From contig JAUVUL010000013.1 in the NCBI GenBank assembly GCA_030600975.1, positions 1 to 11,076 of the forward strand: a stretch of DNA of 11,076 nt, written 5' to 3'. The position numbers were made by a program, and so were the translations under genes. Below are positions 1,407 to 7,458 of this stretch, one piece after another. The notes under the pieces are model-generated. The model had not been told where the DNA came from. It saw only the letters and a program-made list of their open reading frames with translations, and searched no databases. Within the stretch, counting starts at the first letter, position 1. The number at the start of each line of letters is the position of its first letter. Origin of the DNA: Candidatus Aegiribacteria sp. (GTDB lineage: Bacteria; Fermentibacterota; Fermentibacteria; Fermentibacterales; JCC-6).

Positions 1407-3822
1407 AGAACATCTTCTCCAAATCTCTGCTGTGAGACCTTATTGATCTCCAGCCATTACTATCGTAACTGATATATATATCCGTCCGTTTAATTCTTAC
1501 CTGGTAATCCAGAATTTCGGATAAAAGCAGATCCGGACGGGATTTTCTGCTATCCGTTCGAGTCATAAATACGACACAACCATCTTTTTCATTCACGCTG
1601 AGTACATGCTCACTGTTACCGAGGGTCTCTGCTGTCCTTTCGACTTCCTCTTCTGTCCATAATCCGCAATCCGACGACACACTGTATTCGGCTGAAACGG
1701 AGCTTCCATCGGGTGGAGGTGTATCCGGGGCCAGTGTCCAGGTTTCCTCAACCCTGAGACCTGCAGGCATGAAACGGTTGAGAAGCTCTTCAACCCCGCT
1801 AACATGTATCGTATTAAACTCTATATCTATATACTCTGCAATACTCTCAATACCAAGTGGAAGAGAAGGGCCAAAATGTACTCTAGGCCTTGTAACATAA
1901 CCATCAGACCACGATACAGGCAAATCAGAACGTCTCAGTGCCCTTCCCCACATCCGTACCATATCAAGATGGGAAGTGTATGCAGTACAATCCGTCTTTG
2001 AATAGCGTACCCTCAGTATCGCAGCACATTTTGCCGATGATACGGAATGATCTGGGGCGTAATCCCGGACGGGTGTTTCCCTGCTGTTCCGCGTTCCGGA
2101 GCAGGCTCCACATCCCCTGCATCCCTCCTCCCTGCAGTCGGGGGTTTTCCGGCCTTCTAAATATCGTTTATTCTCCGATTTAAGAAACACCTCAGAAACA
2201 CCCGTGGAAACAAAGCTCCATGGAAGCTCTTCTCCCGGTTCGATACCTGACTGCAACCGTGTCAGAAGATGATCGTAACCGTCAATAAGGTCTTTCCATA
2301 TATCCCATCTGAATCTATCGGTCCATGCGTCAAACCTTGCCCCAAGAGAAACGGCTTTCTCCAGCATATCAGCGGTATCTTCGTCATTACCCAGCGAAAG
2401 CAACCCCTCGATAATGGCTATATTGGGGCTGTTCCAGCTCAGAGAAACTTTCTTTCCGCAGATTTTCCTCACCATCCGGATTCTCCGCCAGAGTTCATTT
2501 TCATCCATCTGCGGTGACCACTGCAACGGTGTCTGCGCTTTCGGTACAAATGGAGAAAGGGCTGCTGTAATGCTCTTTCTCGAATTACGACCATGACTCC
2601 GTGCAATTCCTGCTATCTTCAATACAAGCTCACCTATCCCGGTTACATCTTCATCGGATTCCCCCGGAAGACCCACCATGAAATAGAGCTTTACCCCCTT
2701 TGCTCCCATTCTGAAAACGGTGTCAACCGCAGTGAGAATAACTTCATCGGACATGGGCTTGTTAATCTTCCGCCTCATCGATTCCGTGCCCGCTTCGGGC
2801 GCAATAGTGATCCTGCCGGTAATGCTGCGGCTTTCTCCAAGCCGGTTTATCGTATCCGGCCTCATCGATGGCCTGCCTATGGCTGCATGATGCTTTTCGG
2901 CCAGCATATCCATACCGCTCAGGAGCAAAGGCAGTTGGGAATAATCGGAGAGCGAAAGGGTCAGGAGGCCGGATTTCTCCCATCCTGTTGATTTGAGGGT
3001 TCTATCCATCAGATCTACTGCCTCCTCAGTCGGTCTCTCCCGAACGGGTCTGTAAAGCTGTGACGCCTGGCAGAATCTGCATCCTCTGGTGCAGCCCCTG
3101 GCAATTTCGATGACTGCCCTGTCCTGCGATATCCTGGAATTCGGAACCAGCTGTCTCACCGGAGCATATTCCATTCGGAGGCTTTCGATCCTCTGTATCT
3201 TCACCTGTTTCTTTCCCAGAGCCGGAACGTATACTCCTGGTATTTCGCTGGCTTTTTTCAACCGATCGCTATGGGAACCGACACCCGCAAGAACCCTGAA
3301 CAAATCTACCGCCTGTTCCTCTGCCTCGCCCAGAAAGAAAATATCCGCAAAGGGAGCAAGGGGAAGCGGGTTACCCAGACCGCCACCTCCGAAGAGGATA
3401 ATGGGAGCATTATCATCTCTGTCGCTGCTGCGAAGGGGCAATCCCATTCTGGTTATGAGATGAAGCACATTCGTATACAGAGCCTCGGAGGAAATGCCAA
3501 AACCTACGACCCTGCTGAAACGGACAGGATCCCATCCTTCCAGATCAACCCATTCCAGGTTCTCCCTGCCTATGATCTCATCCATATCCGGAGCAGGACA
3601 GAATGCTCTTCTTACATCAAACTGATTGCTTGAGATTAAAATATGCCTGAGAATTACAAGTCCGAAATTGGACATACCCAACTCGTATATATCGGGATAT
3701 ACAAGTGTGACCCTTGGCCTCCCACTTACAGTGATATCAAGGTTCCACTCTCCCCCGGTATACTGCTGGGGTCTCTGTGCCTTTTGAAGGAATCGCGCGT
3801 AGGGATGTTCTGCGCAGATCAA
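1396..3822 (-). CDS. Radical SAM protein (TIGR03960-like) fused to C-terminal DUF2344 domain
   Basis: An 808-residue two-part protein. Residues 1-180 form the family's N-terminal Rossmann-like region (VTLVYPDIYELGMSN), often labelled B12-binding, but I see no DxHxxG cobalamin motif. The radical SAM core follows, with the 4Fe-4S motif C244-x3-C248-x2-C251 (ARGCTRGCRFC), then EAGTESMRRKINKP near 343 and YFMVGLPGE near 380. A second cysteine cluster C563-x4-C568-x2-C571-x2-C574 joins the core to DUF2344 (from about 601: RVRYSKTDCTAYTSHLDMVR, then PRVHFGPSLPLGIESIAEY). In many genomes these two parts are separate adjacent genes or one fusion, commonly near RNase E/G. The substrate is unknown; RNA or ribosome modification is only a guess from context. 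The start is TTG at 3822-3820, the only plausible start in frame. It overlaps the preceding stop as TTGA with no clear Shine-Dalgarno site, which suggests coupled re-initiation. Family identity is firm, function is not. Confidence 0.9.
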   Translation of the reverse strand: MICAEHPYARFLQKAQRPQQYTGGEWNLDITVSGRPRVTLVYPDIYELGMSNFGLVILRHILISSNQFDVRRAFCPAPDMDEIIGRENLEWVDLEGWDPVRFSRVVGFGISSEALYTNVLHLITRMGLPLRSSDRDDNAPIILFGGGGLGNPLPLAPFADIFFLGEAEEQAVDLFRVLAGVGSHSDRLKKASEIPGVYVPALGKKQVKIQRIESLRMEYAPVRQLVPNSRISQDRAVIEIARGCTRGCRFCQASQLYRPVRERPTEEAVDLMDRTLKSTGWEKSGLLTLSLSDYSQLPLLLSGMDMLAEKHHAAIGRPSMRPDTINRLGESRSITGRITIAPEAGTESMRRKINKPMSDEVILTAVDTVFRMGAKGVKLYFMVGLPGESDEDVTGIGELVLKIAGIARSHGRNSRKSITAALSPFVPKAQTPLQWSPQMDENELWRRIRMVRKICGKKVSLSWNSPNIAIIEGLLSLGNDEDTADMLEKAVSLGARFDAWTDRFRWDIWKDLIDGYDHLLTRLQSGIEPGEELPWSFVSTGVSEVFLKSENKRYLEGRKTPDCREEGCRGCGACSGTRNSRETPVRDYAPDHSVSSAKCAAILRVRYSKTDCTAYTSHLDMVRMWGRALRRSDLPVSWSDGYVTRPRVHFGPSLPLGIESIAEYIDIEFNTIHVSGVEELLNRFMPAGLRVEETWTLAPDTPPPDGSSVSAEYSVSSDCGLWTEEEVERTAETLGNSEHVLSVNEKDGCVVFMTRTDSRKSRPDLLLSEILDYQVRIKRTDIYISYDSNGWRSIRSHSRDLEKMFFES
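1414..1420 (-). promoter_or_regulatory. Shine-Dalgarno site for rng
   Basis: GGAGAAG on the minus strand, 7 bases before the TTG at 1406. It lies inside the last codons of the radical SAM gene. It supports TTG as the start, because no ATG or GTG in the RNase frame lies at a suitable distance. Confidence 0.65.
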
Positions 3823-4343
3823 ATTCGTAACGGGGCAGGAAGATCGATCTTCTGGGAAATCGGATTTGCCAGAAGGCCGTGATCTCTGTAGGTGGAGACA
3901 GTCAGGTCCAGGACTCTGTTTCTGGCATTATCGAACGATATCCCGGATGTAAAACCGAAACGCCATAGAACTGAACAGAGGACACCTTCAACCTCGCAGT
4001 TGTTTCTGCGGAGGATTGCTGTCCAGTTCTCAGAAACACTGTCGATTCTGTCAGTTACAAGAACATCGATCCATACCATCCTGTCATCCGATCGGTCAAC
4101 AAGCTTGCTGAACTCATCAATGAAGGACCATATCTGCTTGTTGGGGTTGACAATATCATGGTAGCGGGATACTATCCCGCTGACGGTTTCTCTACCCAGA
4201 CAAGGGTTCAGGAAACACCAGTAATCGTACCGCTCAAGACTGTCGGGACACGTTTCGGGATATATCCGCCTGAAAGTTGACATGGCGGTCATGGCCGCCG
4301 GATCGGGGGCTTTCAAACTGACAACGATAGAGATATTTCCCAT
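3819..4343 (-). CDS. Probable tandem PurS-like subunit of FGAM synthase (two PurS-like halves)
   Basis: A 174-residue soluble protein without a textbook motif, starting one base after the purQ stop. I propose it is a divergent, duplicated PurS, the small structural subunit that bridges PurQ and PurL. The second half (about 89-170) has the PurS order strand-helix-strand-helix and ends in LLANPISQKIDL, close to the LLANPxIxDY-type tail of PurS. The first half (4-75) repeats the plan: ISIVVSLK plus DPAAMTAMSTFRRIY resembles the VYVSLK...DPQG opening of PurS, and it ends in NPNKQIWSF. PurS is usually about 80-90 residues and dimerises, so two fused copies fit 174 residues. The start is ATG 4343-4341, with AGGGGAG 7 bases upstream. 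An ATG at 4451 is in frame but would overlap purQ by 107 bases and lacks this support. No other purS is visible. What is seen is the motifs and position; the function is inferred. An unrelated hypothetical protein remains possible. Confidence 0.6.
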   Translation of the reverse strand: MGNISIVVSLKAPDPAAMTAMSTFRRIYPETCPDSLERYDYWCFLNPCLGRETVSGIVSRYHDIVNPNKQIWSFIDEFSKLVDRSDDRMVWIDVLVTDRIDSVSENWTAILRRNNCEVEGVLCSVLWRFGFTSGISFDNARNRVLDLTVSTYRDHGLLANPISQKIDLPAPLRI

Positions 4344-4344
4344 A

Positions 4345-5172
4345 TTAGCGCTCCCCTCTGAAGTAATCTGCCAGACTCGTGAAGAAAAGCGATCCGGGAC
4401 CCTTTGTGGATGCATAGGAACCGGAATGGAGTGATTGATCTCTGCGGTCACCCCATTCTCCGGGAAGGTACGGAGGAAGCTGCCACAGCCAATAAGCCCT
4501 TTCAGGATGAGGCATCATTGCCAGCACGTTTCCGCGGTCGTTCATGATCCCGGCAAGGTTAAGGAAGGAACCGTTCGGGTTGGCCGGATAATCACTCGTT
4601 TCGGTTCCTTTTTCATCACAATATTTCAGAGCTGCACTGTTCGAGGCTCTGTAGCGGTTCTCCTCCGAGAAGACAAACCTTCCTTCGGCGTGGGCTATGG
4701 GCAAAGGTAAAATCCCGGTGCCTGTCCTCCCAAGCCATGGACAGATCTTCCGTGCCTTTGCAGCGACATGAAGGAATATCCACCTGCTCAGATAACCACT
4801 TCGTCCGCTGATGTGATTCGCCGCAAGGGCGGATTCGATCCTTCCCCTCTCCCATCCGGGGACCATACCGCTTTCAACCAGTATCTGGGCACCGTTGCAT
4901 ATACCCAAAACAGGTTTGCCGCCTGCAGCCTCGCTGAAAACCAGATCCATTATTTTTTCCTTTGCGGCCACAGCGCCGGCACGAACCCTGTCCTGAAACG
5001 AAAATCCCCCGGGAAGTACATAAGCATCCGGCAGAGAATCCTTCAGTTCCTGCCATTGATTCCACCGGTAAATACAGCTATCCATGCCACTGTTCTGTAC
5101 AGCACGAGATGTCTCATACTCGCAGTTTGATCCGGGGAACTGAATTACCACAACAAGAGGGGCGGACTTCAT
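4345..5172 (-). CDS. purQ: Phosphoribosylformylglycinamidine synthase subunit PurQ (glutaminase)
   Basis: Class I glutamine amidotransferase subunit of FGAM synthase. It hydrolyses glutamine and passes ammonia to PurL for step four of de novo purine synthesis. The 275 residues open with VVVIQFPGSNCEYE, and the oxyanion region is YVLPGGFSFQDRVRAG. The catalytic nucleophile is Cys92 in GKPVLGICNGAQILVESG. PIAHAEGRF lies at 159-166, and the His222-Glu224 pair in MMPHPERAYW completes the triad. It is longer than the roughly 227-residue Bacillus PurQ, mainly from about 50 residues after the HPE motif, ending SLADYFRGER. The ATG at 5172 overlaps the purL stop as ATGA, and AGGAGGT lies 6 bases upstream (5179-5185). 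The PurS-like gene follows after one base. All three would be made in matching amounts as one complex. Identity is very secure. Confidence 0.96.
   Translation of the reverse strand: MKSAPLVVVIQFPGSNCEYETSRAVQNSGMDSCIYRWNQWQELKDSLPDAYVLPGGFSFQDRVRAGAVAAKEKIMDLVFSEAAGGKPVLGICNGAQILVESGMVPGWERGRIESALAANHISGRSGYLSRWIFLHVAAKARKICPWLGRTGTGILPLPIAHAEGRFVFSEENRYRASNSAALKYCDEKGTETSDYPANPNGSFLNLAGIMNDRGNVLAMMPHPERAYWLWQLPPYLPGEWGDRRDQSLHSGSYASTKGPGSLFFTSLADYFRGER
4351..4357 (-). promoter_or_regulatory. Shine-Dalgarno site for the PurS-like gene
   Basis: AGGGGAG on the minus strand, 7 bases before the ATG at 4343 and inside the last codons of purQ. It decides the start in favour of 4343 over the in-frame upstream start at 4451, which would run deep into purQ. 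Confidence 0.65.
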
Positions 5173-7454
5173 TCCGTTACCTCCTCTCTCCAGATAATTC
5201 TGTCAAGCCTGTTGGCATGGTCTTCAAGTATCTCCCGAAGATCCATTCTCCACCGGGACGCTGCTATACAGAATTCATCCGTCACCCTTCCAGCCACAGA
5301 AAGAAATTCCGGCTTATTTTCTATTGCATCCCAGGATTCCTGTGACATTTCAATGAGATAACCCGGTGTTTCGGAATAGAGAACAACAGGGTCCATCGCT
5401 TCAGTATCGAAAACAATTCCCCTTCTGGCGTCAGGTCGGGAAGCAATGGCCATTTCCGCTGCCGCCAGTATCATTCCCCCCTCCGAAATGTCATGGACGG
5501 CTCTTGATATACCTGCTTCGCAGCATTCGAGTACGAACCGGGCCATTTCCCGTTCGAGTTTCCCCCTGAATGCAGGGACTCTGCCCCCCCTGTGACCAAT
5601 ACATGTTCTATAGTAAAGACTGCCCCCCAGCTCATCCTTCCGGTCACCTGCCATGATGATCAGGTTTCCTGGTGCCTTGAGAGATATATCGGTGGACTTC
5701 GTAAAATCATTTATCCTGCCGAAGACAGCGACTATGGGCGAGGGGGGAATAGACCCCCCCTTCGATGACTGGTTGTAAAAACTTACATTACCCGAGACGA
5801 TGGGCAGAGGGTCTTCACTTTCAAGGCCAAGGTCCATGCAGGCGGCTGCAATTCCTTCCACACCTCGGCGGAATTGCCAGAAGACATCGGCTTTTTCAGG
5901 GTTTCCGTAATTCAGGCAGTCTGTGGCTGCAATAGGAGTGGCTCCGGTTGCTACAACATTCCGGACGGCTTCGCCTACGGCGTGGGCTCCCGCAAGAAAG
6001 GGGTCAAGCTCACCGATCCAGGGATTACCGTCTCCTGAGACAGACAATCCCGCCCTGCATCCGGGAATCGGAACGATTACACAGGCATCAGCCTCTCCTG
6101 GTCTGAAATGTGTATTACCTTGAACCTCACTGTCGTAATAACTCCATACGGGAGACCTGCTGACCCCGTCAATGGAAAGCAGCATTCTTTTCAAATCCAG
6201 AGGCGGATTGCAGGGTCTGGAATCCGGTTCAATTACAGGCACAGGGGATGGTTCCCAGTTCCTTTTGTATACTATTCCCTCGGTTATGTACTCAATTGGA
6301 GTGTTGGCGACTTCTTCACCCCGGTGGAGGACCCTGTAAAAAGGCTCAGCGGTAAATGTACCGATAACTGTAGCACCTGCTCCGGGAAACAACCGGGGCA
6401 TTTCGTATTTTTCATTGTAGATTTCAAGAACCTCAGCTGATATCCTTCGGGGCACAGCGAGCCCGTACCGTTCCTGGGTTTCGGCACATGCAATAACCTC
6501 TGAAGGCAGTTCAGGAATGGATACGGGAACAAGGTCAAGGTTCACCTTTATGCCAAGGTTTCCATGGGCCGCAAGTTCGCTGGTAACACAGGCTATTCCA
6601 CCTGCGCCCAGATCCTTGAATCCGAACTTGATCTCCCTGTCGAAAAGATAATCGAGTACATTCAGATTAGCCTCGGAAAGCACTCTCTTCAGGAATGGAT
6701 CAGCCACCTGAACCGCTCCCTTCTCGGACTCGTCTTCAAGATCGGTCGAGGCGAATGTGGCTCCACCGAAACCCGTATCATCGGTAGGCTTTCCAACCAG
6801 AATAAGAACGTACTGCTCTTCATGTGCTTCGACGGGAACGAAGCTGTGTACTATTCTGTCATGCCTTACAAAACCGAGTGCAACAACGTTAACAAGGCAG
6901 TTGTCATCGTAACCTTTATGGAATCTTGTATCACCACCGAGGTTGGGTACACCAAGAGCGTTCCCGTACTTCCAGATGCCTTCTACAACACCGCGGCATA
7001 TAGCCCTTGACTTCTCCCCTGAATTGCCCAGAGGATCCCCGAACCGGAGCAGGTCAAGGGAACCTGTTACCCTGGCACCCATGCAGTACACATCACGAAC
7101 GATACCACCTATTCCGGTGGCAGCGCCTTCAACGGGGAGAACCTGGGACGGATGGTTATGACTCTCGTGGGCAACAACAAGATCCCAGGAGAAACCGTCA
7201 TGATCGGTGAATTTTACGATACCGGCATCCTCCCCGGGACCCACAACCACACCGGTTGCATGGGTAGGAAGCAGTTTCAATACAGATCTGGAACTTTTAT
7301 AGGAACAGTGTTCGCTCCACATCGTATCGAAGAGGTGCAGCTCTAGAGGTGTCGGCATCCTGCCCACGTATCCGGCAAGCTTTTCGGCTTCTTCAATCGT
7401 CATGGCCAGGCTGCGATGCCTGATGGCTTCTTTCAGTTCATCCCGGAGGTTCAT
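5169..7454 (-). CDS. purL: Phosphoribosylformylglycinamidine synthase subunit PurL (small type)
   Basis: ATP-dependent FGAM synthase subunit: FGAR plus ATP and PurQ-supplied ammonia gives FGAM. The 761 residues match the small PurL of Bacillus and Thermotoga type (about 600-740), not the roughly 1300-residue fused enzyme, so PurQ and PurS partners are expected. The N-terminal motif MWSEHCSYKSSR lies near 46-56, and the nucleotide/substrate loop AHESHNHPSQVLPVEGAATG near 95-114. FGFKDLGAGGIACVTSELAA lies mid-protein. The second AIRS-type half has NPWIGELDPFLAGAHAVGEA, DCLNYGNPEK, SGNVSFYNQSS and AVHDISEGGMILAAAEMA. I start at ATG 7454 because GAAGGGA lies at ideal distance; a TTG three bases earlier (7457) is too close to it. 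The coding strand holds two G7 tracts, but the frame reads intact across both. It overlaps purQ by 4 bases and lies 51 bases after the GAF gene. Confidence 0.97.
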   Translation of the reverse strand: MNLRDELKEAIRHRSLAMTIEEAEKLAGYVGRMPTPLELHLFDTMWSEHCSYKSSRSVLKLLPTHATGVVVGPGEDAGIVKFTDHDGFSWDLVVAHESHNHPSQVLPVEGAATGIGGIVRDVYCMGARVTGSLDLLRFGDPLGNSGEKSRAICRGVVEGIWKYGNALGVPNLGGDTRFHKGYDDNCLVNVVALGFVRHDRIVHSFVPVEAHEEQYVLILVGKPTDDTGFGGATFASTDLEDESEKGAVQVADPFLKRVLSEANLNVLDYLFDREIKFGFKDLGAGGIACVTSELAAHGNLGIKVNLDLVPVSIPELPSEVIACAETQERYGLAVPRRISAEVLEIYNEKYEMPRLFPGAGATVIGTFTAEPFYRVLHRGEEVANTPIEYITEGIVYKRNWEPSPVPVIEPDSRPCNPPLDLKRMLLSIDGVSRSPVWSYYDSEVQGNTHFRPGEADACVIVPIPGCRAGLSVSGDGNPWIGELDPFLAGAHAVGEAVRNVVATGATPIAATDCLNYGNPEKADVFWQFRRGVEGIAAACMDLGLESEDPLPIVSGNVSFYNQSSKGGSIPPSPIVAVFGRINDFTKSTDISLKAPGNLIIMAGDRKDELGGSLYYRTCIGHRGGRVPAFRGKLEREMARFVLECCEAGISRAVHDISEGGMILAAAEMAIASRPDARRGIVFDTEAMDPVVLYSETPGYLIEMSQESWDAIENKPEFLSVAGRVTDEFCIAASRWRMDLREILEDHANRLDRIIWREEVTE

Positions 7455-7458
7455 CAAT

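Follow-up and report, generated by a model that had tools for sequence, protein, structure and literature searches.

A free-standing gene for a predicted tandem PurS lies behind purQ in Candidatus Aegiribacteria and several other little-studied bacterial groups

Results

A gene without a family name follows purL and purQ

We analyzed an 11,076-nucleotide (nt) stretch of Candidatus Aegiribacteria sp. (contig JAUVUL010000013.1; hereafter, the window), taken from an assembly of 391 contigs that is 61% complete. On its minus strand lies a run of genes in the order purB, GAF-GGDEF gene, purL, purQ, a gene that we call purSS, and radical-SAM gene. The synthetase subunit of formylglycinamidine ribonucleotide (FGAM) synthase is encoded by a small purL (5169..7457, minus; 762 amino acids [aa]; TIGR01736, 634.2 bits, cut-off 525.75) and the glutaminase subunit by purQ (4345..5172, minus; 275 aa; TIGR01737, 203.1 bits, cut-off 177.8), the two genes overlapping by 4 nt. 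Both matches are to equivalog models, in line with a first reading of the window (the original prediction) that had placed a small-type PurL and a PurQ beside purSS. Because the TIGR01736 alignment of PurL starts at protein residue 20, which is profile position 2, there is no room in it for a PurS-like N-terminal domain.

The purSS gene (3819..4343, stop codon included) encodes 174 aa on the minus strand, a strand the original prediction had left unstated, and is supported by its open reading frame, homologues, AlphaFold2 model, and structure alignment. Its frame runs from an ATG at 4343 to a final codon ending at 3822, with the stop at 3819-3821; purQ ends at 4345, so the predicted one-base gap between the two genes is correct, and the peptides quoted for the product (VVSLK, DPAAMTAMSTFRRIY, NPNKQIWSF, and LLANPISQKIDL) are all found in it. 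A probable ribosome binding site read from the sequence, the purine-rich AGAGGGGAG (4351..4359, minus), lies 7 nt ahead of the ATG.

At E <= 10, PurSS has 73 homologues, all with E 2.6e-25 or better, and its ratio of nonsynonymous to synonymous substitution rates (dN/dS) is about 0.10-0.19 against four close relatives; judged by this conservation, purSS is a real gene. (For a fifth relative, L010, the ungapped comparison runs across an indel and its dN/dS is not interpretable.) The product had been said to belong to no obvious family, and indeed, at E <= 10, neither Pfam nor NCBIfam has a model matching the whole protein, and Pfam has none matching its halves scanned separately. None of the 73 homologues carries a Pfam domain, and all those with a name in their source are called hypothetical protein. 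A protein profile search returned 422 family members at E <= 1e-3; among the best 120, which we used, there was again no Pfam domain, and the source-named ones are hypothetical proteins.

Both halves of PurSS are related to PurS

AlphaFold2 predicts two PurS-like repeats for PurSS, each with the β-α-β-α-β unit of the PurS fold. Repeat 1 (residues 1-74; 4122..4343, minus) comprises strand 4-10, helix 15-27, strand 35-45, helix 51-60, and strand 70-74, and the matching half of the Margulisbacteria-type branch described below hits the PurS profile. Repeat 2 (residues 89-167; 3843..4079, minus) comprises strand 89-98, helix 102-113, strand 120-132, helix 137-148, and strand 164-167; its assignment also draws on a profile match and on structural alignment with the PurS structures 2zw2, 2yx5, 1gtd, and 2cuw. 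Together the repeats reproduce the two-repeat fold of the large-PurL N-terminal domain (PF18076), which, as one piece, is the best structural match of the model. In both VIA structure lists, all rows ranked above unrelated chains are FGAM synthase or PurS; in the Foldseek list of a second model, unrelated chains are on top.

Each repeat carries an NP motif immediately before its last strand, the position that LLANPxxE holds in PurS: NPNK (residues 66-69; 4137..4148, minus) at the end of repeat 1 and GLLANP (residues 156-161; 3861..3878, minus) at the end of repeat 2. Across three groups of aligned sequences (70 + 145 + 11), N66 and N68 are present in all, K69 in 91-100% and P67 in 73-100% by group; P161 is found in 99-100% and N160 in 82-100%. 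At positions including D14, A20, R38, N66-P67-N68-K69, W127, G156-L157-L158, and N160-P161, the most frequent residue is the same in each of the three groups (226 sequences).

For sequence comparison, we built alignments of 39 of the 74 proteins made up of the window's protein and its 73 homologues (A1, the window group), of 25 distant loci (A2), and of 50 sequences (A3), as well as a pooled set of 215 of 219 sequences that passed a 160-215 aa length filter. PurSS does not reach the curated cut-off of the PurS model PF02700, which matched 0 of the 39 window-group members at E <= 10, one of the 25 distant members (L087, 19.7 bits, cut-off 22.2; no match was seen with its halves scanned alone), and, again short of the cut-off, two of 10 Margulisbacteria-type proteins (E about 0.05). 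PF18076 matched neither the whole protein nor either half at E <= 10. In profile-profile comparison, the second half of the pooled set (Fermentibacterota, Krumholzibacteria, and kin) scored 27.1 against PurS, above all 200 column shuffles (null maximum 16.1), and the first half of the same set was weak (17.1, reached by one of 200). For the Margulisbacteria-type branch (11 sequences), both halves scored clearly: 35.3 over 79 columns for the first (0/200 shuffles, null maximum 17.0) and 35.8 over 70 columns for the second (0/200, null maximum 16.1). The branch and the window group can be aligned over their full length (probability 99.0, E 2.7e-18, 169 columns). At the level of sequence profiles, both halves are homologous to PurS, by way of the Margulisbacteria-type branch. 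Of the check originally proposed, the Pfam scan of the halves gave no match and the profile-profile comparison did; the PurS-like character of both halves is borne out by the latter and by the AlphaFold2 fold, although no curated hidden Markov model (HMM) exceeds its cut-off.

PurSS accompanies PurL and PurQ in genomes without recognizable PurS

Among 41 same-order relatives (G001-G041), PurSS was found in 40, and the same 40 have a TIGR01736 PurL, over the cut-off in 32 and with purL in pieces in the other eight; the remaining genome (G013, 73% complete) has neither. By coordinates, purSS and purL share a contig in 38 of the 40, and in the other two (G026 and G033) purSS adjoins purQ close to a contig end. 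Rows at E 0.0257 and above were excluded; they are second matches in genomes that also gave a strong one, or the sole and weak matches of G047 and G059.

PF02700 passed its cut-off in none of the 41 same-order genomes and, in the same search, in 13 of 18 outgroup genomes; of the other five outgroups, three have no TIGR01736 match and two (G047 and G049) have longer fused PurLs. Weak PF02700 rows were excluded from these counts: in the same-order set they came from eight genomes (E 0.147 or higher) and never coincided with a PurSS gene, and in the wider set they came from G064 and G098 (E 0.05-0.06). The source assembly has no PF02700 match at E <= 10, so the observation that no purS is otherwise seen extends to that whole assembly, 61% complete, and, above the cut-off, to the 41 relatives. 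PurM, the next enzyme, was matched in all 30 same-order relatives searched (only in part in G008), with a partial match in the source genome; because PurM is present, the FGAM step of the pathway is needed in these genomes.

A purL search of GTDB genomes yielded 79 loci (L031-L109), many of them on contigs equal in length to those of the genomes searched above and not independent of these, with labels (unchecked) of Fermentibacteria, Krumholzibacteria, an Eisenbacteria, a Latescibacterota, and some Gemmatimonas or Gemmatimonadales. By the family profile, a PurSS open frame accompanies purQ in 54 of the 56 loci with purQ beside purL. Two loci are exceptions. L069 stops 66 nt past the purQ frame, and in its genome purSS lies at the beginning of a different contig; L108 is archaeal and encodes a canonical PurS. 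At 23 Krumholzibacteria-type loci among the 56, purL and purQ form one open frame (L060, L062, L064-L074, L076-L081, L084, L085, L096, and L105), and a separate double PurS gene is next in all except L069 (22 loci). A Pfam check of the L069 fusion placed GATase_5 behind the AIRS domains, in the order L-Q, in about 1,090 aa. In Candidatus Sabulitectum silens (L106:10227-11696 and L030 [G035]), a single frame spans purQ and the double PurS, and purL is split over three, reflecting either a PurQ-PurSS fusion or sequencing errors.

Eleven loci from Margulisbacteria, UBP8, and other metagenome-assembled genomes have neither purQ nor purSS beside purL in the available sequence, and PF02700 found no PurS in their genomes at E <= 0.1. 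A genome-wide search with profile A3 recovered divergent PurSS members in eight of these 11 (the best E of each genome lying between 3.5e-10 and 3.5e-5), all eight directly behind purQ, on the same strand, and on a contig other than that of purL. A targeted rather than blind look behind purQ found a member in each of the remaining three. In total, 45 of 48 genomes have a PurSS member (42 by profile A3 and three by the look behind purQ); G068 and G098 have neither a member nor a PurQ match at E <= 1e-10, and the third, the archaeon G106, has a canonical PurS and is the only one of the 48 to pass the PF02700 cut-off. At three Margulisbacteria-type loci (L247, L248, and L249), we noted by eye a thioredoxin-reductase-like gene before the purQ-PurSS pair and a family-2 glycosyltransferase-like gene after it.

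Of the neighboring genes in the window, all on the minus strand, purB (9987-8680) forms the upstream end of the run. The GAF-GGDEF gene (8657-7506) lies between purB and purL; by eye the GGDEF motif of its protein looks degenerate (RTGTDKMTLL), so this protein may be an inactive sensor inside a purine gene run. Directly after purSS comes a radical-SAM gene of TIGR03960/TIGR03936 type (3822-1396), whose listed TTG start at 3822 gives a 4-nt overlap with purSS; a downstream gene in locus L079 (L079:13087-16167) is by eye similar to a TIGR03960-type radical-SAM gene.

Origin of the double PurS

In a FastTree phylogeny of 54 PurLs (midpoint root, small outgroup), all sampled PurSS-associated PurLs and nine of Margulisbacteria type form one clade (support 1.0) that is distinct from the canonical small PurLs and distant from those of mid-size and large type; PurSS is therefore associated with a small-PurL lineage of its own. 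A fused arrangement also exists: G047 encodes a PurL of about 1,040 aa (L135) with an apparent N-terminal double PurS and a separate purQ, and the related L146 and L147 likewise have an apparent fused double PurS. PF02700 does not detect the L135 stretch either, and may miss doubled PurS in general. Compared with PurS, the second half of this stretch is clear (probability 91.4) and the first weak (8.8), both above all 200 shuffles.

These fused proteins, the mdPurL described for archaea in passages of PMC3261824, and the one-piece structural match to the large-PurL N-terminal domain all speak for PurSS being a domain split from an ancestral large or mid-size PurL, rather than a tandem fusion of PurS, with the same mode of working. 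We consider such a fission possible but unlikely, because the sampled PurL partners are nearer to canonical small PurL than to mid-size or large PurLs (on the midpoint root), the gene order is L-Q-SS instead of SS-L-Q, and PurSS detectably resembles the G047 fusion in the second half (0/200 shuffles score as high) but not in the first (186/200). That a free double PurS is a middle form between the three-subunit and the fused enzyme, as originally suggested, is a good hypothesis rather than a result.

Discussion

We consider it highly likely that PurSS is a free-standing tandem PurS that acts as the third subunit of FGAM synthase with small PurL and PurQ, coupling the two at 1:1:1, and it very probably replaces the missing PurS subunit in several little-studied bacterial groups. 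Its interpretation as an internally duplicated PurS draws support from fold, profile homology, purQ linkage, and the absence of a recognizable PurS. In the known system, PurL, PurQ, and PurS assemble at 1:1:2; in large PurL, the N-terminal domain touches both synthetase and glutaminase, probably coupling them (passages of PMC10912719). Excerpts of PMC10927867 and PMC3815217 describe that domain as homologous to a PurS dimer, in agreement with the original prediction, and the latter includes a "synthetic PurSS" sequence made for an alignment. The natural protein PurSS has this PurS-dimer make-up and is therefore expected to replace the dimer, one copy per PurL and PurQ.

We infer the binding, stoichiometry, coupling, and activity of PurSS as follows. 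PurQ would release ammonia from glutamine, and PurL would use it with ATP to convert formylglycinamide ribonucleotide (FGAR) to FGAM. PurSS would sit at the PurL-PurQ interface and couple both active sites, with one chain corresponding to a PurS dimer or to the large-PurL N-terminal domain, in a PurL:PurQ:PurSS complex of 1:1:1 in place of the 1:1:2 of PurL:PurQ:PurS.

PurSS could instead be a PurS-fold protein now working outside FGAM synthesis, as a purine-operon regulator or assembly factor, with PurL-PurQ acting without PurS or with an unrecognized one. PurSS itself goes unseen by PF02700, so another highly divergent PurS could likewise escape, and the GAF-GGDEF protein shows that genes for other than purine enzymes can occur in the run. 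We judge this very improbable: PurSS co-occurs with small PurL, its gene stands beside purQ in distant phyla even where purQ and purL are on different contigs, its motifs are strongly conserved, and it is under purifying selection, all of which fit the role of a core subunit. Hardly credible, and disfavored here, is an accidental likeness in which PurSS is a ferredoxin-like double domain of unrelated function; such folds are common, no curated HMM passes its cut-off, and unrelated chains top one Foldseek list, but only FGAM synthase or PurS ranks above unrelated rows in both VIA lists, both halves of one branch beat all 200 shuffles against PurS, and the purQ linkage recurs at loci found by profile irrespective of position.

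If PurSS is the third subunit, it supplies the missing gene of a core pathway for several candidate phyla, where PurL and PurQ had seemed partnerless, and assigns a function to a family whose listed proteins, where source-named, are all hypothetical. A broader proposal, which we hold to be evenly balanced, is that PurSS marks a fourth FGAM synthase architecture (free double PurS with PurL and PurQ, or with a PurL-PurQ fusion in Krumholzibacteria-type genomes), tied to its own PurL clade in several bacterial phyla. There the doubling would have been independent of the large-PurL fusion and the halves would have specialized, one toward PurL and one toward PurQ, turning a symmetric homodimer into an obligate asymmetric pseudo-dimer. 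Now that free PurS, free PurSS, PurSS-PurL, PurLQ plus PurSS, and full-length large PurL are all available for comparison, phylogeny and subunit swaps can test in which order duplication and fusion took place.

We found no description of a free double PurS in the open-access literature searched, with subscription journals mostly outside it. PurSS shares with PurS (PF02700), the FGAM synthase subunit of Gram-positive bacteria and archaea, the fold of each half, an NP-containing C-terminal motif, a gene beside purQ, and the company of small PurL. Unlike PurS, a homodimer of single domains of about 80 aa, PurSS carries two diverged domains in one chain (174 aa in the window, about 170-200 aa in the family) and falls below PF02700 detection. 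With the mdPurL type of some archaea, which has about 200 extra N-terminal residues whose PurS-like role is only suspected in the relevant passages of PMC3261824, and with the similar L135 of G047, it shares two PurS-like units in one chain, as read from the L135 sequence; in that type the double unit fronts PurL, whereas purSS stands on its own downstream of purQ. In large PurL (Salmonella/human type), the N-terminal domain (PF18076) lies within a chain of about 1,300 residues, whereas PurSS is free, has no detectable PF18076 sequence match, and accompanies a purL that starts without this domain. PurSS would be a natural free counterpart of the equivalence, assumed in structural work, between two PurS and a single large-PurL N-terminal domain.
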